Virus record (IMG/VR): IMGVR_UViG_3300046008_000691
Span: 1 to 30,652 of that record
DNA: 30,652 nt
Source: a virus
Reading direction: 5' to 3' (one strand)
The notes under the pieces are model-generated. The model did no database searches and was not told the DNA's origin. It saw only the letters and a list, made by a program, of their open reading frames with translations. The position numbers and the translations under genes were made by a program. Shown here piece after piece: positions 7,790 to 19,733 of this stretch (its first letter is position 1; each line of letters begins with the position of its first letter).

Positions 7790-9499
7790 ATGACCGCACC
7801 AACTACAATTTCGGAATTTAAGACACAATTTGCAACGAAAGCAAAAGAAAGCCTGTTGTCTGTTGATTTAAGCACAGCCACGACAGAACAGCTAATTACG
7901 CAAGGGGCAATTTTTAATCAATCGGTTAAGGTTGATGTTGATTATCCGTTATATACACACAATGATTTCTCTACCGATTTGAGCGATATTTATTCAACGG
8001 GCGGCGCAACTTTTATTAAGTCGGGCAACTGGGTTGATATTTCGAGCTTAGATACAGCGACAAAAGCTAATTTTGCAAGTGCTTTAACTGTCAATACAAA
8101 TCTAGCCGTCACTGATAGTGTAGCAACTGGATATTATTCAAATAACTGTATGCTGGACGGTATTTCACCTCCTGCAATCGTCGGAACAACACGCTGTATA
8201 GGTTTATCGTCAGCAGCAAATTCATCTGGTTGCTATTCAGCCACTATTAACGCAAGCGGGGTGCAAGTTATCAATAGTGGTCAAGTTGCTGGCTACACAT
8301 CAACAGCAGGAGCAAAAAGCGTTATAACATCAGACGGGACAAAATTTTGGCAGTGGACAGCGGCGAGCGCAACAGCATTTGGCGCATATTCATCAACTGA
8401 CGGCATCACTTGGACAGCCGAAACGCTAACAGGCTTACCAACATTTGCAGATTTAACTTCACTTCCGTTTTTTGGAAAAATAAGTACAGTCGTTGCGCCA
8501 ATTGGTGACGCAAATCAAAGCAGCAATGCACTATTTTCTTTGTATTGTGGCACAAGACATTTGTTAATTGGCACTGGCGCATCGTATTTAATCGCCGCAA
8601 CATCGACAAACGGGCTTGCGTGGACAGACGTAACAGCGTCAATGCTCGGCTCTACAACGGTTGCTAATGCCGCAAGCGCAATTAATTTTGTTTATAAAAA
8701 CGGCAATACAGTTGCCATTTTGCTTGATGGCGGTATTGGGCGATATACTACCGATGGTGGTGCTACATGGAGTGCTTGCACAGGTGTTCCCAATTTCGTC
8801 ATTGACCAACACGCTGTAAAAGCTGATGCCACCACACCAGCTAATCTTGTTATTTCGCACAATGGAAGCACAAACCTTTATGTGTCAAACGATAGTGGCG
8901 CAACGTGGACTAATAGAACAAATCCGTTAGGCAGTAACGTCGCCGTTACATCAATCAAAGGAGGGACGATTGTTGTCAGCAAAAACGGTGTAATTAAAAA
9001 ATCAACCGATAACGGCGCAACATGGTCCTCCGTTACGATTCCACAATCTATTGCCTCGTCAATAATCACGTCTGTTTATTGCGATGCCTATAGATGGTAC
9101 ATGGTTTCCAATTCGCAAATTGCCACATCGACAGATTTATCAACGTGGACACTTAGAACTATAAACAATCTAAATATTGCATTAGGCTTAATGAACGGCG
9201 TTTGTTCAATTGATGTAAACACGATTGTTATTTACGACTCGACAAAAATAGCAGTGTCATTAGATGGCGGCGTGACGTGGAATGTGATGTCAATTTTAAA
9301 TGTGGCAGTTAGCGGTCAACATAGATTATTACCAAATACAACAGGTACAAACTTAATCTTTAATGCTAATTCCTTGGGCTCTAATGGTAATCATACTATT
9401 GCAACAAAATCCGAACTGGCGAATGGCTTTAAACTCGCCAAAGTGACATTAATCGCTGCATCAAGCGCAGGTTTAGCCGCATTTTTGAGGATAGAATAA
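7790..9499 (+). CDS. Tail protein with Asp-box (BNR) beta-propeller, probable receptor-binding
   Basis: 569 aa. Seven Asp-box-like motifs (S/T-x-D-x-G-x-T-W) occur at about residues 200 (STDGITW), 272 (STNGLAW), 320 (TTDGGATW), 365 (SNDSGATW), 404 (STDNGATW), 446 (STDLSTW) and 489 (SLDGGVTW), spaced 39-72 residues. Such repeats build the blades of sialidase-like beta-propellers. The N-terminal 110 residues probably anchor it to the tail. No sialidase catalytic set was identified, so glycan binding is more likely than cleavage. The ribosome binding site is weak; translation may be coupled to the preceding gene. Confidence 0.72.
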   Translation: MTAPTTISEFKTQFATKAKESLLSVDLSTATTEQLITQGAIFNQSVKVDVDYPLYTHNDFSTDLSDIYSTGGATFIKSGNWVDISSLDTATKANFASALTVNTNLAVTDSVATGYYSNNCMLDGISPPAIVGTTRCIGLSSAANSSGCYSATINASGVQVINSGQVAGYTSTAGAKSVITSDGTKFWQWTAASATAFGAYSSTDGITWTAETLTGLPTFADLTSLPFFGKISTVVAPIGDANQSSNALFSLYCGTRHLLIGTGASYLIAATSTNGLAWTDVTASMLGSTTVANAASAINFVYKNGNTVAILLDGGIGRYTTDGGATWSACTGVPNFVIDQHAVKADATTPANLVISHNGSTNLYVSNDSGATWTNRTNPLGSNVAVTSIKGGTIVVSKNGVIKKSTDNGATWSSVTIPQSIASSIITSVYCDAYRWYMVSNSQIATSTDLSTWTLRTINNLNIALGLMNGVCSIDVNTIVIYDSTKIAVSLDGGVTWNVMSILNVAVSGQHRLLPNTTGTNLIFNANSLGSNGNHTIATKSELANGFKLAKVTLIAASSAGLAAFLRIE

Positions 9500-9912: not shown

Positions 9913-10216
9913 TGTTTTAGTCAGCCTTGACCAGTTAGCGAATACGTTAGCTGGCGGCAATCCTGACGTTACCGTTAGCGGGCATATCGGCTTGATGTCT
10001 GATAGAGAAATTTTCACGCATGGCAAGTGGGATAGACTTGCAAAGATGGTTGATAAAACCTTTGGTCCGATTGAATCAAATCATTGCGTTGAATCATTTT
10101 TAACAGATGATGATTTTGATTTAACCGAAAATTTTAACCGCGTTTTTGTTATCGCGTGCCTAGGCTGTGCCTTGCTCTACTTACCAATTCGGATTATTGC
10201 TTATGCCACTCGTTAA
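9896..10216 (+). CDS. Conserved small phage protein with C-terminal membrane helix (106 aa)
   Basis: The start at ATG 9896 is preferred over the TTG at 9878. The N-terminus (LVSLDQLANTLAGGNPDVT, then G-I-G) and a later NHC motif match a small protein family found near fibre or lysis genes in many phages, whose function I do not know. Residues about 84-103 (VIACLGCALLYLPIRII) form one likely membrane helix. A lysis-related role is possible because no holin was found, but nothing in the sequence shows it. Overlaps both neighbours. Confidence 0.65.
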   Translation: MKFWLNVLVSLDQLANTLAGGNPDVTVSGHIGLMSDREIFTHGKWDRLAKMVDKTFGPIESNHCVESFLTDDDFDLTENFNRVFVIACLGCALLYLPIRIIAYATR

Positions 10217-11753
10217 AATTCAAAATGCTGGTGCAATCGGCTTGAATCGTGACTTGTCCAATCATGAGTTACCACTAGGCGCGTGGACAGATTGCCAAAA
10301 CATCCGCTTTTTAGACGGTTACGCTTATCAATTCTTAGGACACGGTGAAGTTTATAATTCACCGTCTTTTGAGCCGCAACACGTTTTACCGTGCAACGTT
10401 GCTGGTGGTCGTTATTGGGTTTATTTAACACCGACTAAGGCGTTTGCAGTGACAAATAGCGCGGGCGTTTCAGTTCATACCGATATTACACACCTAACGC
10501 CACGCACGGGCGTGACAAACCAGTGGACGAGTACACTTTTATCAGGCGTGCCGATTGTGAACGCGGGTGATACGACTGCACCAATGGCATGGAGCTTATC
10601 GCTAGACGCAAAGTTTGTTGATTTGGCAAACTGGCAAGCGGGTTGCTCGTGCAAATCGTTACGCGCATTCAAGAATTTTTTGATTGCATTGAACATCACA
10701 AAAAGCGGCACGTCCTATCCTTACATGGTCAAGTGGTCACATCCTGCCGACCCTGGCGGATTACCGTCATCTTGGAATGAAGCGGATGCAACGAAACAAG
10801 CAGGTGAAGCCGATATAGCCGAAGGTTACGACCCGATAGTGGACGGGATGCAATTACGCGATTCGTTCATTATTTACAAAGAGCAGTCAGTATGGCGGAT
10901 GGATTTTGTCGGTGGTAATTACATTTTCAAATTCACAAAAGTGTTAGGCAAGTCTGGCGCGATGAATCGGAACTGTATTGCTGACATCGACGGCTATCAT
11001 GTGGTTTTAACCAATAACGACATCATTATTCATGACGGCAATCAGGCAGATTCAGTGCTTGATAAAGTGACGCGACGTTGGCTATTTCAAAATATCGACG
11101 TAAATAATTATGGCAAATGTTTTGTGTTTGCTAATCCGTTTTTCAATGAAGTTTATATTTGTTATCCGCAAATAGGTTCATCGTCATGTGACAAGGCAAT
11201 CGTTTATAATTACAAAGACAAAACCGTTTCGGCGCGTGATTTGCCAAATTTAAACCATGCCGCGTATGGCAGTGTTGATAATGGCTTGACGGGTAATTGG
11301 TCGCAAGATTCAGCACCATGGGATTCTGATTTGTCATTGTGGGACGGCGGCGATTTTGTCCCGTCATCAGCGCGGATTATTTCGGGAAGTGCCAATACAA
11401 AACTTTATATGCTCGATGCGTCCAGCTCGTTTGATGGTGTAATTCCAAACGCTTATTTAGAGCGACGCGGATTATCTTTCGATATGCCCGAAGCAATGAA
11501 GTTGGTAAAAGGTATTCGTCCACGCATTCAAGGTGGCACAGGTGAAACGGTACAAATTCAAGTGGGTTCACAAACTGACCCTTTTACCGAACCACAATGG
11601 GGAAGTGTTATGAATCATGTTATTGGTCAAACGATTGCAAACGACTGTCTGGTTCAAGGTCGGTATATTGCAATCAGATTTTCAACGGGAACGGCTTTTC
11701 AGTGGCGGCTAGATTCACTGGACATTGACGTTCAACAATCAGGAAATTGGTAA
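10203..11753 (+). CDS. Large tail hub/nozzle-type protein (516 aa)
   Basis: The start at ATG 10203 (MPLVKIQNAGAIGLNRDLS) is chosen over an upstream in-frame ATG at 10167 because it gives a short overlap with the previous gene and the usual N-terminus. The protein is rich in beta strands and aromatic residues, and the segments LPLGAWTDCQNIRFLDGYA and DGMQLRDSFIIYKEQSVWRM are typical of the large tail protein found in this position in P22-like podoviruses, corresponding to the gp10-type hub or nozzle that plugs the DNA channel. The stop overlaps the next start. The structural assignment is by family resemblance and gene order. Confidence 0.72.
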   Translation: MPLVKIQNAGAIGLNRDLSNHELPLGAWTDCQNIRFLDGYAYQFLGHGEVYNSPSFEPQHVLPCNVAGGRYWVYLTPTKAFAVTNSAGVSVHTDITHLTPRTGVTNQWTSTLLSGVPIVNAGDTTAPMAWSLSLDAKFVDLANWQAGCSCKSLRAFKNFLIALNITKSGTSYPYMVKWSHPADPGGLPSSWNEADATKQAGEADIAEGYDPIVDGMQLRDSFIIYKEQSVWRMDFVGGNYIFKFTKVLGKSGAMNRNCIADIDGYHVVLTNNDIIIHDGNQADSVLDKVTRRWLFQNIDVNNYGKCFVFANPFFNEVYICYPQIGSSSCDKAIVYNYKDKTVSARDLPNLNHAAYGSVDNGLTGNWSQDSAPWDSDLSLWDGGDFVPSSARIISGSANTKLYMLDASSSFDGVIPNAYLERRGLSFDMPEAMKLVKGIRPRIQGGTGETVQIQVGSQTDPFTEPQWGSVMNHVIGQTIANDCLVQGRYIAIRFSTGTAFQWRLDSLDIDVQQSGNW

Positions 11754-12051: not shown

Positions 12052-12310
12052 CAGCAACAGCGTTTTTTATTCTCCAGCACCTGTTCCGCTCAACACAGCG
12101 GATTTACCGCGCTATTTACAAAATGAATTTCAAGCGATTCAAAACGCGATTATGCAACTCGCAGCAGGTCATATTGATGTAACAAATGTTGCACCAGAAA
12201 AACCGCGAGAAGGTGATATTCGGTTAGCTGACGGGGTTAATTTCAACCCAACTGGCTTAGGCCAGCGTTTTGTCGGTTATCGCGGTGGCGCGTGGGTGGA
12301 TTTAGGATGA
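12038..12310 (+). CDS. Short tail-associated protein (90 aa)
   Basis: A 90-residue protein starting MQANNSNSVFYSPAP. It contains LPRYLQNEFQAIQNAIMQLA, a pattern common in short phage tail proteins located just ahead of the GNAT-like gene, then a glycine-rich C-terminal half (GQRFVGYRGGAWVDLG) resembling a small beta structure. A plausible weak ribosome binding site is AAGAAGAAG. The stop overlaps the next start (ATGA). Function unknown; position suggests a minor tail component. Confidence 0.65.
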   Translation: MQANNSNSVFYSPAPVPLNTADLPRYLQNEFQAIQNAIMQLAAGHIDVTNVAPEKPREGDIRLADGVNFNPTGLGQRFVGYRGGAWVDLG

Positions 12311-12735
12311 TGCAAATATATAAAGTTCCAAAAAACGATGTCGGTTTATATTGGTTTCAAATGCGCGACTTTTTAGACGACGCACTCAAAAAATATAATT
12401 GGCATCATCGCTTCCCACTAGATATGTTGCCCATAAAGTTAATGCAGGGCGATTACCAATCATTTTTGATTTACGACAATGCTACCAAAGTAGTTCTAGG
12501 TGCTTTAGTTACCGAAGTTATTAGCTATCCGCTTGGCGACGCGCTAAATATCTTTTTGCTAGGCGGGAATGAGATGCAAAAATGGGTTAGCGAATTGGAT
12601 ATATCGCTCACATTATACGCAAAAGAAATCGGCGCAAAATGGATTGATACAGGAACTAGACGGGGAATAGGTAAATTGTATTATCCAGCTATCGGATATA
12701 AAGAAATACAGACAAGCTACACAAAAGAAATCTAA
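12307..12735 (+). CDS. GNAT-like phage protein (142 aa)
   Basis: The start at 12307 (MMQIYKVPKNDVG) overlaps the previous stop as ATGA. The arrangement resembles GNAT acyltransferase-like phage proteins: a central segment YDNATKVVLGALVTEVISYP, a LNIFLLGG strand and the C-terminal part YAKEIGAKWIDTGTRRGIGK followed by LYYPAIGYK. Such proteins occur at the start of ejection-protein clusters, and T7 gp13 is a known GNAT-like virion protein. The acetyl-CoA loop (Q/RxxGxG/A) is not clearly intact, so it may be structural and not enzymatic. Confidence 0.6.
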   Translation: MMQIYKVPKNDVGLYWFQMRDFLDDALKKYNWHHRFPLDMLPIKLMQGDYQSFLIYDNATKVVLGALVTEVISYPLGDALNIFLLGGNEMQKWVSELDISLTLYAKEIGAKWIDTGTRRGIGKLYYPAIGYKEIQTSYTKEI

Positions 12736-12775: not shown

Positions 12776-15145
12776 ATGAGCAAGGGCGGCGGTTCTAGCA
12801 ACACTACATCGACAGTAAAGCCAGACAAGGCTACGCGCGAACAACAGTCGGACGTTCGTCGTTATTACAACGACCACTTTACCGAAGAACAACAGGTAGA
12901 TACGGGCAAAAAAGATAAAAAAGGCAACCCGATTTACAAAACAAAACGGGTAATGAAAACGGATTTATCGCCCGAATTAGAAGCACTCAATAAGCAATAC
13001 GGTTTAAATTTAAGCGGTCGTCAAGATTTGCTCGATTATCAGTTTAATAATGCCACGTCGCTTTCTGACTTAATTAGCTCAGGCAAATTCGATTCAAATT
13101 TTGACCCGATTGAAAACGTTGGCGCACCAGAAAACTCAAATTACATCAACGCGTCAGTAGACGACGCGGGTAGTGCGGCAGGTGCAAAATATACTAATGC
13201 AGACGTAACAACACTCCCAGACTATCAAGCCGCCTCTGCTGCACAGTCAGCGGATTACCAAGCGGCAACACTTAGCGAAATAGCGGACTACGAGGCGGCA
13301 ACTGCACAAACAACACCGTACCAAGCGGCAATCGGCGGCACGGTTTCACCGTACCAAGCGGCAATCGGCGGCACGGTTTCACCGTACCAAGCGGCAACGC
13401 CTAGCGAAATAGCGTCTTATCAAGCGGCAACGCCCAGCGAAATAGCGGATTACCAAGCGGTAAACGCACAAACAACACCGCAGTATAAAAATGCAATTGC
13501 TCAACTTTCGCCAGAATATCAAGGCGCAAACACATCATTAAGTGATTTGACAGCCTCGCGTCAATCAATGGGGGAAGTTGACCCAACAACATCGTTACAG
13601 AAATTGCTTGGCGGCAAAATTGACAACCCTTATTTATCATCAATAAACCAAGCCAACATTAATCAGTCGATGCAAGGCTATAACGATATGCTTCAAAACT
13701 TGACGCAATCGACGATGCCACAAATTGGAAGTGATGCCTTTGCGGCTGGTCAATACGGAGGCTCGCGTCAAGGAATCGCGCAAGGTTTAGCATTACAACA
13801 AGCCGAAAGAAACGCGCGTGATTTAACGCAGTCAAATGTTGATTCTGGTAATCAATTATTTGGTCAAGCGTACCAAAACGCACAACAAAATATGTATGGT
13901 ACGGCAAACAGTTTGAACCAGTTAGCAGGTCAAAACGCGCAATTTAACGCAAGCGCATTAAACCAAGGCTCGCAATTTAACGCGGGTAATGAGTTGCAAC
14001 GCGGCTTATACGACACAAGCCAAGCAAACAATATGGCGCAGTTCAACGCAAATAATCAGTTGCAAAGCGACCAATACAACGCAGGACAAGTAAATAATAT
14101 CGCGCAACTCAACGCGAATAATCAGCTACAAAATCAGCAGTTTGGCACGTCGCAACTAAACAACCTGTCACAATTTAATGCTGGTAATCAATTGCAAAAT
14201 CAGCAGTTCGGCACGTCGCAACTAAATAACCTGTCACAATTTAACGCGAATAATCAACTTCAAAACCAGCAGTTTGACACATCGCAACTCAATAACTTGG
14301 CGCAATTCAACGCGGGTAATCAGTTGCAAAATCAGCAATTCGACACATCGCAGTTCAATAATTTAGCGCAACTCAACGCGAATAACCAATTGCAAAGCGA
14401 CCAATTTAGTATGTCGCAAATCAATGATATAGCTAAACTCAATGCAAATAACCAGCTACAAAACAGCCAATTTTCCACTGGACAAGCAAATAACATGTCG
14501 CAGTTCAATGCGGGTAATCAGATGGCAAACACGCAATTTAACGCAGGGCAAGCAAACAACATAGCGCAAACCAACGCAAATAATCAGCTACAAAGTGACC
14601 AGTTTAGTGCTAATGCTGAAAATACGATAAATCTCGCTAATACACAGAACCAAGCCAACATAGGGCAGTTCAACGCAGGACAAGCGAATAATATGTCCCA
14701 ATTCAACACGGGACAAACGAATAATATGTCCCAGTTCAACGCGGGTAATCAGTTGCAAAACAATCAGTTCAACGTCGGCAACGATATGACTACTGACCAA
14801 TTTAATGCCAATCTAGGCTTGCAAAACAACACGCAACAAGCAGGTCAAAATACGCAGAATTTGCAAAACGCATTAACTGGCGTTAGCACGGGTCAAACCG
14901 CACTAACGAATCTAACGGCTGGACAGGATGCGAACTATCAAAGCCAACTTGGATTAACGAACTTTAAAGATGCTAGAACGATTGAAAATTTAGGCATTCT
15001 CGGTCAGACGGCTAATCTGCAAACAGGGCAATCGTCATCTACTTACGGTGGTGGCGGTGGACTTGGTCAGCTAGCTGGACAGCTTGGCGGAACGGCATTA
15101 TCAGGAATGGCACTTTACAACATGGTTGGACCATCGGCGTTATGA
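12776..15145 (+). CDS. Asn/Gln-rich repeat protein, probable ejection or internal virion protein (789 aa)
   Basis: The protein has a charged N-terminal domain (1-130), an array of 11-residue units of the YQAATPSEIAD type (about 150-258), a central domain (about 260-388), a long array of 11-residue units alternating between QFNANNQLQNQ and QFGTSQLNNLS types (about 389-685), and a Gly-rich tail (GGGGGLGQL). Eleven-residue periodicity fits three helical turns per repeat, as in right-handed coiled coils. Gene order at the head of the ejection block suggests it is released with DNA at infection. AAGG is the ribosome binding site. Its enzymatic activity, if any, is unknown. Confidence 0.75.
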   Translation: MSKGGGSSNTTSTVKPDKATREQQSDVRRYYNDHFTEEQQVDTGKKDKKGNPIYKTKRVMKTDLSPELEALNKQYGLNLSGRQDLLDYQFNNATSLSDLISSGKFDSNFDPIENVGAPENSNYINASVDDAGSAAGAKYTNADVTTLPDYQAASAAQSADYQAATLSEIADYEAATAQTTPYQAAIGGTVSPYQAAIGGTVSPYQAATPSEIASYQAATPSEIADYQAVNAQTTPQYKNAIAQLSPEYQGANTSLSDLTASRQSMGEVDPTTSLQKLLGGKIDNPYLSSINQANINQSMQGYNDMLQNLTQSTMPQIGSDAFAAGQYGGSRQGIAQGLALQQAERNARDLTQSNVDSGNQLFGQAYQNAQQNMYGTANSLNQLAGQNAQFNASALNQGSQFNAGNELQRGLYDTSQANNMAQFNANNQLQSDQYNAGQVNNIAQLNANNQLQNQQFGTSQLNNLSQFNAGNQLQNQQFGTSQLNNLSQFNANNQLQNQQFDTSQLNNLAQFNAGNQLQNQQFDTSQFNNLAQLNANNQLQSDQFSMSQINDIAKLNANNQLQNSQFSTGQANNMSQFNAGNQMANTQFNAGQANNIAQTNANNQLQSDQFSANAENTINLANTQNQANIGQFNAGQANNMSQFNTGQTNNMSQFNAGNQLQNNQFNVGNDMTTDQFNANLGLQNNTQQAGQNTQNLQNALTGVSTGQTALTNLTAGQDANYQSQLGLTNFKDARTIENLGILGQTANLQTGQSSSTYGGGGGLGQLAGQLGGTALSGMALYNMVGPSAL
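13223..13549 (+). repeat. Tandem 33-bp coding repeats (YQAA-type, about ten units)
   Basis: Ten consecutive units of 11 residues (one of 10) begin with Tyr-Gln-Ala-Ala or a variant. Two units, 13319-13351 and 13352-13384, are identical at DNA level, which suggests recent duplication by slippage or recombination. In frame with the gene and so not a CRISPR array. Confidence 0.85.
13940..14830 (+). repeat. Tandem 33-bp coding repeats arranged as 66-bp pairs (Asn/Gln-rich)
   Basis: About 27 successive 11-residue units, most beginning Gln-Phe or Gln-Leu-Asn-Ala, often as a two-unit pair of 22 residues. Units with strong DNA similarity lie around 14130-14330. The reading frame is unbroken throughout. 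Confidence 0.85.
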
Positions 15146-15531
15146 ACGAAATCCAAAACATAGAGAATTTCATCAGCGTTATGCCAGACGTGATAACCGA
15201 CTTTGACGTTGAACATTATCAAATCGACGGCGTTTATGTTCGGTCGTTGTTTATTCCTAAAGATATGGTTTTGACTGGAAAAATTCATAATCACGAACAC
15301 ATTGCCATTTTGGCGCAAGGGACAATCCGCGTGCATAACGGTGAAGGATTTAAAGAAATTTCTGCACCTTGCACATGGATAGAAAAAGCAGGTGTTAAGC
15401 GGCTGGGTTACGCGCTCACAGATTGCACGTTTATCAACGTGATTCGCACCGACTTAAAAGATATTGCAGACATCGAAAACGAGGCGGTATCGAACACATT
15501 TGAAGAATTTGAACAACGGAGAATCGCATGA
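15142..15531 (+). CDS. Small cupin-fold phage protein (129 aa)
   Basis: Starts at ATG overlapping the previous stop (ATGA). Residues 47-60 (GKIHNHEHIAILAQG region) carry three histidines, H49, H51 and H53, spaced as in the first cupin motif, followed by Gly turns and PCTWIEKAGVKRLGYAL, the second-half strand pattern. A metal-binding beta-barrel is likely. It sits among ejection proteins, where similar small cupins occur in related phages; the role there is not established. The last residues are acidic and the stop overlaps the next ATG. Confidence 0.65.
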   Translation: MNEIQNIENFISVMPDVITDFDVEHYQIDGVYVRSLFIPKDMVLTGKIHNHEHIAILAQGTIRVHNGEGFKEISAPCTWIEKAGVKRLGYALTDCTFINVIRTDLKDIADIENEAVSNTFEEFEQRRIA

Positions 15532-16154
15532 GTTTTGCAATGGTAGGAACAACAGCGGCAAGTATTGCGGCGGCAATTGGTTCGGGAGCGAGTGCTGTCG
15601 GTGGTGCGCTTGCATCAGGCGCGGGCGCAATCGGTGGATTATTAGGTGGCGGCGCGGCGGCGGCTGGCGGAACTGCGGGAGCTGGAATCGGTGCGGCGGC
15701 AAGTGGCGCACTAGGCGCGGCTGGCGCAACAGGGGCAGGAGCTACGGCGGCAGGTGTTGGCGGCGGTTTGCTTGGTGCTGGAGCAGGTGCATCAGCAGGA
15801 CTAGGAACACTCGGCGCGGCTGGCACTTCTTTTGGTAGCTCAATGTTAGGCGGTGGTTTAGCCAGTGCTGGAGCTGGTGCAACTACAGCAGGATTAGGCG
15901 CAACAAGCACGGCGGCTGGTTTAGGCTCTGCAATGGGCGTTGCTGGCGCGGGTTCAGCGTTACCAATGGCAGCGAGTTTGGGCGGTACTGGTTTAGGTGC
16001 GACAGGCATGACAACACCACAAGCAATCGGCTTGTTAGGCACAGGCATGAAAATGATGGGCGGTAGCGGTCAACAACAAGCTGCACCACCTGCCCCGTCA
16101 ATGCCAGCACCACAACCGATGCCACGCCCACGCTTGAAAACTTACGGTCAATAA
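15528..16154 (+). CDS. Gly/Ala-rich virion protein, probably DNA-ejection associated (208 aa)
   Basis: Preceded by GGAG and overlapping the cupin stop (ATGA). About the first 165 residues are almost only Gly, Ala, Ser, Thr and Leu, a composition seen in membrane-active or channel-forming internal virion proteins. The C-terminus is Gln/Pro-rich then basic (PRPRLKTYGQ). The local DNA is much more GC-rich than its neighbours because of GGC and GCG codons, so a long minus-strand frame is open here by chance. Function is inferred from composition and position between repeat protein and muralytic protein. Confidence 0.7.
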   Translation: MSFAMVGTTAASIAAAIGSGASAVGGALASGAGAIGGLLGGGAAAAGGTAGAGIGAAASGALGAAGATGAGATAAGVGGGLLGAGAGASAGLGTLGAAGTSFGSSMLGGGLASAGAGATTAGLGATSTAAGLGSAMGVAGAGSALPMAASLGGTGLGATGMTTPQAIGLLGTGMKMMGGSGQQQAAPPAPSMPAPQPMPRPRLKTYGQ

Positions 16155-16167
16155 TTAGGAGATAAAA

Positions 16168-17769
16168 ATGGCAGGTTTATTAAATTTTTTCGAGGGAATG
16201 GACAAGAAAACGCAAATGGGTTTGCTTATGGCTGGAGCGCAAATGATGCAAACCCAGCGCGGTGATTCACCTTTCGCGGCAATCGGTAACGGTTTGCTCG
16301 GATTTGCAAATGGAATGCTAAACCAAGAACAACAAGCCAAAGAAGATGCACGACTTGCGAGAACTGACGCGCGGCAATCACGACTTGATGACGTTGATAT
16401 GCAACTCAAGCAAGCACAAGCGCAACGATACTTGACGGATGGCACAAAACAGCCTGACCCGTATTACACACCAATTCCAACACCAAACGGCGTTTATGGT
16501 TTTGATAATCGAAGTGGTAAAGTTCAGTTGGCGATTGATGAAAGCGGTCAGCCTGTTATTAAATCGAGCGATTCTATCCCGCTTCAATCGGGATTAGCTG
16601 GAGCAAAAAGAGCGGCTGAAAATTCAAACTCGTTTGTCGAATTGGATAATTCGGATGGCTCAAAATCTAAAATGCTTGGCGGTGCGGCTTTTCCTGAATT
16701 GTTACGACAACCAACGGATTTGTCGAGATTGCCGCAAGTGAACGGTAATAATTACGGCAACATTCGCCCAATTGGTGCAAATAAAGGCTTTCAACGTTTT
16801 GACACGCCAGAAGCAGGATTAGCGGCGATTGACCAGAATTTAGCGGCTTATGGTTCAAAACACGGTATCAACACGTTAGGCGGCGTGATTAGTCGCTGGT
16901 CACCACCGAACGAAAACGATACAAAATCGTTGATTGCAAACGCAGCAAGAGTCACAGGGTTAGACCCAAATCAACCGATTGATTTGTCCGACCCTAAAAT
17001 CCGCGCAATGATTACTCCTGCAATTGTGAAGCAGGAGCATAGCATTGATATAACCAATCCCATTACAAAACCCGCTGTGCTAGGAATGCAAATGGCGGCT
17101 AAAAATGGCGTATCACCACAAGAAGCTATCGACAAAGGTGTGGCAATCGCAGAACAAAGTGTCAGTGATTTAAAACGGGTTCAAGGCGCGGCGCACACGA
17201 TGTACAGAGGGCAAACGACATACAACAAACAAGCGGCAGAAGAACAAGCAAAACTAGATTATGAACCCAAAATTACTGCCGCCAAAAAAGAATCTGAAAT
17301 AAAAGCAGAATCAAAAGCGAATGCTGAAATCTCATTGCCGCAATCAAACTCAGATGCTGCATCAATCCTTGACACAATTAGCAAGTTGGAAGCGCATAAA
17401 GGACTTGATAAGGGGACGGGCGCGTCAAGTGTGTTTTTTAATAAAGTACCTGGAACGGATGCTTACGACTTCAAAAGCCTGCACGAACAGGCAACTGGAA
17501 AAGTGTTTATGCAAGCCTTTCAGTCATTAAAAGGCGCGGGCGCAATTACTGATAAAGAAGGCGAAGTTGCCACCAAAGCAATCTCAAGAATGGCGGATTT
17601 AAAGCAATCAAAAGAATCTTATTTAGGCGCATTGAATGATTTAAAAAGTGTGGTTTCTGGAACACTACAAAGAAAACAGGCGATGGCAGGTACACCACAA
17701 CCTGCACCACAATCACAAAAACTAAGCGGTGATGCGCTCGTTAATTTTTATCTTAACGGTGGTAAATAA
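16168..17769 (+). CDS. Internal virion protein with predicted muralytic domain (533 aa)
   Basis: An AGGAGA ribosome binding site lies just before the ATG. The N-terminal part (MAGLLNFFEGMDKKTQ) is helical and Gln-rich. Residues about 192-290 hold NNYGNIRPIGANKGFQRFDT, then TPEAGLAAIDQNL, NTLGGVISRWSPPNEND and AMITPAIVKQE, matching the pattern of phage structural lytic transglycosylase-like domains that open peptidoglycan during DNA entry. The C-terminal half is helical. It could be the only cell-wall-degrading activity in this window. Catalytic residues were not pinned down. Confidence 0.75.
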   Translation: MAGLLNFFEGMDKKTQMGLLMAGAQMMQTQRGDSPFAAIGNGLLGFANGMLNQEQQAKEDARLARTDARQSRLDDVDMQLKQAQAQRYLTDGTKQPDPYYTPIPTPNGVYGFDNRSGKVQLAIDESGQPVIKSSDSIPLQSGLAGAKRAAENSNSFVELDNSDGSKSKMLGGAAFPELLRQPTDLSRLPQVNGNNYGNIRPIGANKGFQRFDTPEAGLAAIDQNLAAYGSKHGINTLGGVISRWSPPNENDTKSLIANAARVTGLDPNQPIDLSDPKIRAMITPAIVKQEHSIDITNPITKPAVLGMQMAAKNGVSPQEAIDKGVAIAEQSVSDLKRVQGAAHTMYRGQTTYNKQAAEEQAKLDYEPKITAAKKESEIKAESKANAEISLPQSNSDAASILDTISKLEAHKGLDKGTGASSVFFNKVPGTDAYDFKSLHEQATGKVFMQAFQSLKGAGAITDKEGEVATKAISRMADLKQSKESYLGALNDLKSVVSGTLQRKQAMAGTPQPAPQSQKLSGDALVNFYLNGGK

Positions 17770-19733
17770 TGGCAACGAAAGAACAAATTATGATGGCGTT
17801 GCAAAACGCACATAATGCAGGTGACACCGAAGCTGCAACACAGCTTGCAAAAATGTATCGTGATGCTGATTCGCAAGAGCCGACACAACAAGAAAGCTAT
17901 GGCGATGTCGCGGCGCGAATGGGAGCGCGCGCATTAACGGGTTTAGGAGAATTAGCGGTTGATATGCCTTTATCGGCTGGTCAGTGGGTGGGTAATAAAA
18001 TCAATGATGCAATCGGACAACCGCACGCGGATTTCAACACACATCCTGTTCGCTCAATGACTGACGCAGGATTAAAGGCGATTGATGTTAATCCGCAATC
18101 TAGTGGCGCGGCTGAAAGCATTGCACAGGCTGGTATTTCGGCTTTAACAGGTTCGGGGATTACAAAAGGCTTAGGTGACGTTGCATTGTCGGCAATGCCA
18201 ATTCGTCAAGCTGTTGGCGCAATGTCGGGCGCAACGGCAAACGAATCACTAAAAGATTCGGATTTACCAGACGCGGCAAAAATGGCGTTAAGTCTAGGTG
18301 CGGGTATTGCAGGTTCAAATGTCGCTGGCGCGGTCGGTGGCATCGGTAAAGGTATCGGTGGCGCGGCAAAAACAGTGCTGACAGAAGAAGGTAGACGTGA
18401 AGCGGCGGGACGTGCGTTGTATCGACAAACAACCAATCCTGACCTAGTGATTGAACGTTTAAAAAATCAGAATCTACGCCAACAATACGTCCCGAATAGT
18501 GCACCGATTTCAGCCGAAATTGCACAGGACGGCGGCTTTTCAATGCTAGGCAAATCACTTGCGGCAAATCCACACGCGATTGCAACAGGTGCTGACCAAA
18601 TCCATAATCAGCGTATTGCGGATTTGTCGAACTCGCTTGAAAATTATTTAAACCGTGCAAACCGTGTTGCCACTGGTAGCGGTGACGATGCAATGGTTGT
18701 GCTGGATAGATTAAAGTCGTCAAAACTAGACCCGTTTTTAGCAGGAAATGATTTGCGAAATACGGCGGTCAATGGCGCGTCAATTATTCCCACGCTCGAA
18801 AGCCAATTTGCAAAGTTTGCAGGTAATGGCAAGGTTGAAAAGTTTATTGAGAAATCAGCTAAAAACCTTTTTCCAAACGCCAAAATCGAGCGCGTTAATG
18901 GTGAATTAAAAATCATTGACGCTGGTGATAGTCCAAACTTTAATCAGGCATGGAATGCTCGAAAAGGGATTGATGATTTACTTTACGATAAGAAAATTTC
19001 GCTCAATTCATCAGCCGAAACTAAAGGCGCGGCAAATGTCGCAGGTGGTGCAATTCGTACATCCATCAACGACGCATTAAAACAAGCCAATCCTGACTTT
19101 GAAGGCGTTTTAGGAACGCTTGCTAAAGCCAACAAAATGCAAACCGCATTACAAACGGGACGCGGGTTGCAGGACAAAATGAAAAACAGTGCCACAACTG
19201 CCGTGCAAAACGAGTACGACATGGTTGGCGTGAACAAATACAGTCCGTTTCAAGGCACTAAAATTGGCAAAGATTTAGTTAATTCACGCGGTCAGCCGTC
19301 CGATTTAGCGAAAAAAATGACCAAATCACAGCGCGAAGCATTTGAAAATGTAGCCAAAGAACTGGAACGCTCAAAAGCACTGGAATCGTTAGGCGCGTCT
19401 GTGGGTTCGCCTACTGCGTCTTATATTGGTCGTGGCGGATTATTAAAAGACGATATTCTTGATTCGATTTTGGGCGCGAGAAAACAAGGCGACAAACCAG
19501 GCTTACTACGCATGGCGGGACAGGGTTTAGGCGGGGCAATTGATAAAATCGGCATTACTGCCCCACTCGAAGAATCTGTCATGCAAAACATTAAAGCAGG
19601 TTTAATAAACCCAGACGAAGCCTTGACGTTGCTGGAAATGGGGAGGAGAACACAGCGCGGATTACTTGACGTTGGCGGTGGCATTAAAAAATCAACGCAA
19701 GCGGGTTTATTAGGCGGATTACTTGCGCGATAA
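17769..19733 (+). CDS. Large internal virion/ejection protein (654 aa)
   Basis: ATG overlaps the previous stop (TAATG). The N-terminal helix (MATKEQIMMALQNAHNAG) and the following motif TGLGELAVDMPLSAG, then Gly/Ala-rich hydrophobic stretches (about 115-205), resemble the last and largest ejection protein in P22- and T7-like clusters, which spans the host envelope. The C-terminal 400 residues are helical. No enzyme motif was recognised. It is the last gene of the late operon and is followed by a terminator-like hairpin. Confidence 0.7.
   Translation: MATKEQIMMALQNAHNAGDTEAATQLAKMYRDADSQEPTQQESYGDVAARMGARALTGLGELAVDMPLSAGQWVGNKINDAIGQPHADFNTHPVRSMTDAGLKAIDVNPQSSGAAESIAQAGISALTGSGITKGLGDVALSAMPIRQAVGAMSGATANESLKDSDLPDAAKMALSLGAGIAGSNVAGAVGGIGKGIGGAAKTVLTEEGRREAAGRALYRQTTNPDLVIERLKNQNLRQQYVPNSAPISAEIAQDGGFSMLGKSLAANPHAIATGADQIHNQRIADLSNSLENYLNRANRVATGSGDDAMVVLDRLKSSKLDPFLAGNDLRNTAVNGASIIPTLESQFAKFAGNGKVEKFIEKSAKNLFPNAKIERVNGELKIIDAGDSPNFNQAWNARKGIDDLLYDKKISLNSSAETKGAANVAGGAIRTSINDALKQANPDFEGVLGTLAKANKMQTALQTGRGLQDKMKNSATTAVQNEYDMVGVNKYSPFQGTKIGKDLVNSRGQPSDLAKKMTKSQREAFENVAKELERSKALESLGASVGSPTASYIGRGGLLKDDILDSILGARKQGDKPGLLRMAGQGLGGAIDKIGITAPLEESVMQNIKAGLINPDEALTLLEMGRRTQRGLLDVGGGIKKSTQAGLLGGLLAR

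Follow-up and report, generated by a model that had tools for sequence, protein, structure and literature searches.

We read the 789-residue product of the open reading frame at 12776–15145 as the first ejection-protein-slot virion protein of a P22-type podovirus, in the position held by P22 gp7 and T7 gp14. Its long Asn/Gln-rich repeat array would be an extended module that has grown and shrunk in evolution as units were gained and lost, and that is ejected and probably serves as a helical conduit element. We give this reading as a whole a probability of roughly 40%. The features that bear on it are as follows.

10167..11753, + strand: gp10-like tail protein (phrog_3287), aligning to phage TL gp54 over 514 aa with 33% identity; marker on the upstream side
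12776..15145, + strand: array-bearing open reading frame, 789 aa; candidate virion/ejection-slot protein, from homologues and operon position
13223..13549, + strand: N-terminal array of the YQAAxxxxxxx type, aa 150–258, in 11-residue units; low-confidence and mostly coil in the AF2 model
13541..13951, + strand: conserved core, aa 256–392, with the signature DAFAAGQYGGSRQGIAQGLALQQAERNARDLTQSN; 63–79% identical in the three closest orthologues
13928..14818, + strand: Asn/Gln array, aa 385–681; 27 contiguous 11-residue units with a 22-residue super-repeat, proline-free
14819..15142, + strand: C-terminal segment, aa 682–789; conserved LQNNTQQ array exit, then a glycine-rich hydrophobic tail
15142..15531, + strand: short-tail-fibre/adhesin family gene, 129 aa (phrog_12032), kept beside the array gene
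15528..16154, + strand: Ala/Gly-rich hydrophobic protein, 208 aa, no family match; possible second candidate membrane-pore ejection protein
16168..17769, + strand: lysozyme-type internal-protein gene, 533 aa; matches endolysin/internal-protein profiles and phrog_2534
17769..19733, + strand: protein in the gp16-like position, 654 aa, no family match

The window (the whole stretch of DNA analysed, 30,652 nucleotides) is a 30.7-kb virus record with a P22-type module of terminase, P22_portal (E 2.5e-202), scaffold, P22 coat, gp4-like and gp10-like genes. The gp10-like gene and two small genes precede the array gene, and the adhesin-family, Ala/Gly-rich, lysozyme-type internal-protein (16168) and 654-aa genes follow it. 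At orthologous loci the array gene is flanked by a gp10-like gene, a 90-aa gene and often an adhesin gene. The family matched by the 533-aa product of 16168, phrog_2534, is described as 'released from the phage upon host infection'. P22 gp20 and this product match different parts of phrog_2534, so we do not claim homology to gp20. The 15142 and 16168 proteins have no useful similarity to their positional counterparts in phage TL, nor do the 16168 and 17769 proteins to phage CV-1-33. The 147-aa gene directly before the array gene (12292–12735) is related to phage TL gp52 (30% over 97 aa), and other podophages carry annotated acetyltransferases near its position. Just upstream of the tail genes, a 569-aa protein (7790–9499) contains BNR/Asp-box repeats and is a possible receptor-binding or sialidase-like tail component. 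The 208-aa protein at 15528–16154 consists nearly entirely of Ala and Gly and has hydrophobic stretches; the orthologous contig L002 has a similar neighbour.

The array and the rest of the protein

The array is in frame, and aa 385–681 can be written as 27 contiguous rows of 11 residues. Separate support comes from Tandem Repeats Finder, which reported 33-, 66- and 132-nt periods at 13987–14742. The units alternate between the consensus sequences QFNA(N/G)NQLQNQ and QF(G/D)TSQLNNL(S/A). The identity of the array with itself is 0.57 at lag 22, 0.55 at lag 44 and 0.23 at lag 11; 2000 composition-preserving shuffles gave at most 0.228 at any lag. The dominant, strict period is 22 residues, that is, two alternating 11-mers. 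The original prediction of about 27 alternating, Asn/Gln-rich 11-mers is thus real by the rows, by Tandem Repeats Finder and by self-identity above the shuffles. It had placed them at 13940–14830; the array is there, with a true start slightly earlier, at 13928. The 11-residue repeat it named holds for all 27 units, yet the 22-residue period is stronger, and the alternation breaks at around aa 616–660, where units of the same type adjoin.

Asn (74) and Gln (63) account for 137 of the 297 residues (46%), and only 2 basic and 11 acidic residues are present. The array has no proline, against 16 in aa 1–384. When units are compared, the fraction of differing nucleotides is 0.327 for codon position 1, 0.206 for position 2 and 0.448 for position 3. 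The excess at position 3 indicates that the amino acids were maintained while the DNA drifted, and hence that the array is not the outcome of DNA slippage only.

The 789-aa protein has no match to any PHROG family at E≤0.001, and none to a Pfam or NCBIfam family. Its core includes the sequence GQYGGSRQGIA, and the positions GQYG-SR-G-A-G are among those invariant in 10 of 10 aligned proteins. Upstream of the core, the same protein carries a second array, of the YQAA type, which the original prediction had overlooked (aa 150–258, lag-11 identity 0.49). In other relatives, this place is taken by repeats of the YQNA or GQATN type.

Relatives and the ejection slot

Orthologues of the array protein were found in the viral contigs L001–L003, L017 and L019–L023, and in one contig of a metagenome-assembled genome (L147). 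Their size ranges from 365 to 857 aa. L020, L021 and L023 have little or no array, L022 has four 22-mers, and L017 has the longest array with approximately 30 units (348 residues). The core is kept while the number of units varies, and the array looks like a module of adjustable length.

It is the array-poor orthologues that lead to a family. Four of them (L001, L020, L021, L022) match phrog_4287, 'DNA ejection protein' (E 4e-5 to 1e-3), and array-poor orthologues also match phrog_7477 (to E 1e-8). With hhalign, the family profile aligns to the Microcystis phage Mel-JY34 protein XAI96483 (E 1e-9) and to Bruynoghevirus TL gp51, a 'phage particle protein' (E 9e-7); phage TL also shares the gp10-like protein and the 147-aa gene that precedes the array gene. 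The phrog_4287/7477 proteins (TL gp51, Mel-JY34 XAI96483 and Chlorobiaceae phage CV-1-33 gene 42) have a GQYGSSR/GAFGGDR core, as the array protein does. They likewise sit after a tubeB/gp10-like gene and have a glycine-rich C-terminus, but measure approximately 290–313 aa and lack the Asn/Gln array. According to its annotation, a further relative of the core, phiM5 gene 27, was detected by proteomics of the particles; the genes of three internal virion proteins follow directly after it. A tblastn search of named phages with the full protein and with the core gave no clear relative. By its core and position, the 789-aa protein appears to belong with the phrog_4287/7477 ejection-slot proteins, a link that is indirect and runs through its orthologues, and we infer from the homologues that it is a virion protein. 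The placement among ejection proteins that had been proposed from the window finds support in this synteny and in the family of the array-poor orthologues.

P22 gp7 (phrog_598) and T7 gp14 share with the array protein the operon position before the other internal-protein genes and a low-charge composition rich in Ala, Gly, Asn and Gln. Both are approximately 200 aa and without an array, whereas the array protein has 789 aa. Ejection proteins of the gp14/gp7 type range from 181 to 240 aa, with a size variation below 30% (PMC8954989). Homology to P22 gp7 was not found: hhalign gave a probability of 0.1% (E 0.67) with no profile similarity; the gp7-family profile searched against the PDB returned nothing. 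The ejection reading is weakened by the lack of a direct family match and of gp7 similarity, by the larger size range, and by the solenoid model and missing 11/3 stripe described below. Another point against it is that the real membrane-pore protein could be the 208-aa Ala/Gly-rich neighbour.

The same slot might instead hold a protein that is not ejected but stays outside the virion as a trimeric tail fibre or a needle-like structure, with the array as its shaft. Several relatives that share the core motif and the slot (phiM5 gene 27, L104 and Octadecabacter DB virus 2 gp18) carry a C-terminal Peptidase_S74 chaperone domain, which is typical of fibres and speaks against ejection. The array protein of L074 (L074:2-2764, − strand) ends in an S74-like SDxRLK motif. 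This phage has a similar array and is a close relative of the window phage, with 55% identity in the portal and 60% in the coat; QFNA-type units are found in both L074 and L104. Depositors have labelled some relatives as tailspike or chaperone, an adhesin-family gene adjoins the array gene, and the coiled-coil needle of P22, gp26, is placed after gp10. However, Pfam finds no Peptidase_S74 domain in the 789-aa protein, whose array-poor orthologues match a 'DNA ejection protein' family. Internal-protein genes come immediately after the gene in phiM5 and shortly after it in the window, and separate fibre-type genes are located upstream (7344, 7790) and adjacent (15142). We consider a fibre unlikely.

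Fold of the array

The original prediction was a right-handed coiled-coil rod. When AF2 was run on the full protein with a 10-sequence alignment, long helices passed through the array (332–478, 503–565, 578–643 and 652–746) with zero strands, at a local pLDDT of 41–88 and a pTM of 0.27. When the array was run alone as a single sequence, strands appeared every 22 residues, which we read as a β-solenoid (pTM 0.52; pLDDT mostly 46–69 in this single-chain prediction). Both models are of low to moderate confidence. The helices of the first model would be compatible with the rod; the second yields β structure, one of the outcomes that the prediction had itself listed as refuting. As one straight helix at 1.5 Å per residue, 297 residues would measure approximately 45 nm. 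Foldseek found nothing below E 0.1 for the helical model.

The hydrophobic periodicity of the array is strongest at 131°, strong at 164° and weak near 98–100°. In terms of harmonics, 3/11 is weak, and 4/11 and 5/11 dominate, in a test for which the phiX174 H hendecads and an LRR stretch, used as controls, indicate limited power. The phiX174 H sequence, taken as printed in PMC7354561, is a genuine hendecad and was also not clean in the test; the CsgA (curli) control was uninformative. The pattern does not fit a canonical hendecad or a simple amphipathic helix, in a test that discriminates poorly. The helix, strand and turn propensities of the array are neutral (0.98/1.00/1.09); in two marine relatives, L057 and L099, the averages lean towards helix. 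For the fold as such, we assign about one half of the weight to helix and about one quarter each to solenoid and disorder.

In a β-solenoid, two 11-residue halves would form a 22-residue coil, and the array would be a stiff rod that Asn/Gln ladders stabilise. We consider this unlikely as an account of the array. The dominant period of 22 residues agrees with it, as do the 22-periodic strands of the array-alone model (pLDDT 55–69) and the hydrophobic periodicities of 2.75 and 2.2 residues. The positional match to 22-residue LRR units beats 99.6% of column permutations, and phmmer hits to LRR chains reach E 4e-10. The alignment-based model, however, is helical, and Foldseek of the solenoid model places no PDB entry under E 0.1 (the best match has E 0.15 and a TM below 0.4), with only weak viral matches. 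The conserved LRR residues Leu-4, Asn-9 and Leu-20 are replaced in the array by Gln/Asp, Ser/Gly and Asn/Gly, respectively, and there are zero Pfam LRR or curlin matches. In L051, among other relatives, the period is truly one of 11 residues, and in several relatives glycine drops to 1–2%. Disorder, by which the array would be a slippage-prone spacer whose composition and spacing stem from repeat expansion under weak selection, is in our judgement a rather improbable account. The Asn and Gln content, the low hydrophobicity, the neutral propensities, the low AF2 confidence in both runs and the wide variation in unit number would all be expected of such a chain. Set against these are the excess of differences at codon position 3, the absence of proline and the strict QFNA spacing described below.

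The phmmer match of window positions 14126–14600 is to the 22-residue leucine-rich repeats of a Rab-family protein. It is a resemblance of period and composition that could mislead automatic annotation. Membership of the array in the LRR class was rejected and the PDB LRR matches were set aside, as positions 4, 9 and 20 are polar or small and Pfam reports no LRR; no LRR fold was recognised among the best 50 PDB Foldseek matches listed.

Spread of the spacing and a possible role in DNA delivery

The DNA pattern for QFNA-x7-QFNA is found in at least 120 viral contigs. With spacings of 18–48 nt allowed, matches within 90 newly fetched loci were exactly 33 nt apart in 88 cases out of 94. Approximately 108 of these at least 120 QFNA contigs or ORFs form one blast-linked family, and the remainder are small groups or singletons. 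The spacing rule therefore stands, although the contigs do not count as independent cases. A member of the large family, L079, has a head-closure/gp10-like gene nearby, consistent with a podovirus. The strict spacing suggests a common and apparently undescribed design; our literature search found no description of such repeats in phage ejection proteins.

Large Gln/Ala/Asn-rich proteins of 1200–1400 aa with 11-residue periodicity, and with QFNA-type units at the end, were seen at L004:2437-6627, L097:7422-11198 and L099:845-4468. No family name was found for these three. The singleton L060:459-2645 (− strand) has a GAFGGSR core followed by a 22-residue array of different chemistry (Ala 24%, Asp 9%, Arg 8%; QF.A..NQFALD.A.R.DQA), so the same architecture here bears a charged array.

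A precedent for the proposed working is the DNA-delivery protein H of phiX174, in which Asn/Gln-lined hendecad helices guide DNA (PMC7354561). Of the 23 side chains that face its lumen, 18 belong to Asn, Gln or Arg, for which a drag on the DNA has been proposed (PMC7354561). The H tube and the array protein have in common 11-residue units (hendecads) and amide-rich side chains (PMC7354561). H differs in having charged residues and only three hendecads, and the tube that is established for H is conjectured for the array protein. No H chain appeared among PDB sequence matches at E≤10, and any likeness would be one of function between unrelated proteins. By these comparisons the array protein falls outside P22 gp7, phiX174 H, the LRR proteins and the S74 fibres, and the array is a novel part.

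On the ejection reading, the conserved core and the glycine-rich hydrophobic C-terminus would perform the basic job of the family, with the array inserted between them and evolving in length through gain and loss of units. Most likely, the protein would leave the capsid ahead of the DNA or together with it, by way of the portal and the tail. As an uncharged, proline-free and weakly folded chain, the array might thread the portal easily. Once ejected, it may make up or line a section of an envelope-crossing conduit, as an elongated, amide-rich and probably helical element, presumably oligomeric and in contact with DNA, along the lines of the H tube.

We understand only in part how short-tailed phages lengthen a channel to cross the envelope. 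In many environmental podoviruses, the Asn/Gln-rich 11/22-residue array of an ejected protein might assemble into an amide-lined conduit (or rod) of adjustable length that serves DNA passage across the host envelope. It would have converged on the design of the phiX174 H tube, and the number of units would tune its length; in this general form, we regard the proposal as speculative and quite improbable. The conserved ends and a countable array of almost zero to approximately 30 units provide a natural length series among the relatives. As the number of units can be compared with the rest held constant, a role as ruler, conduit or spacer is directly testable.
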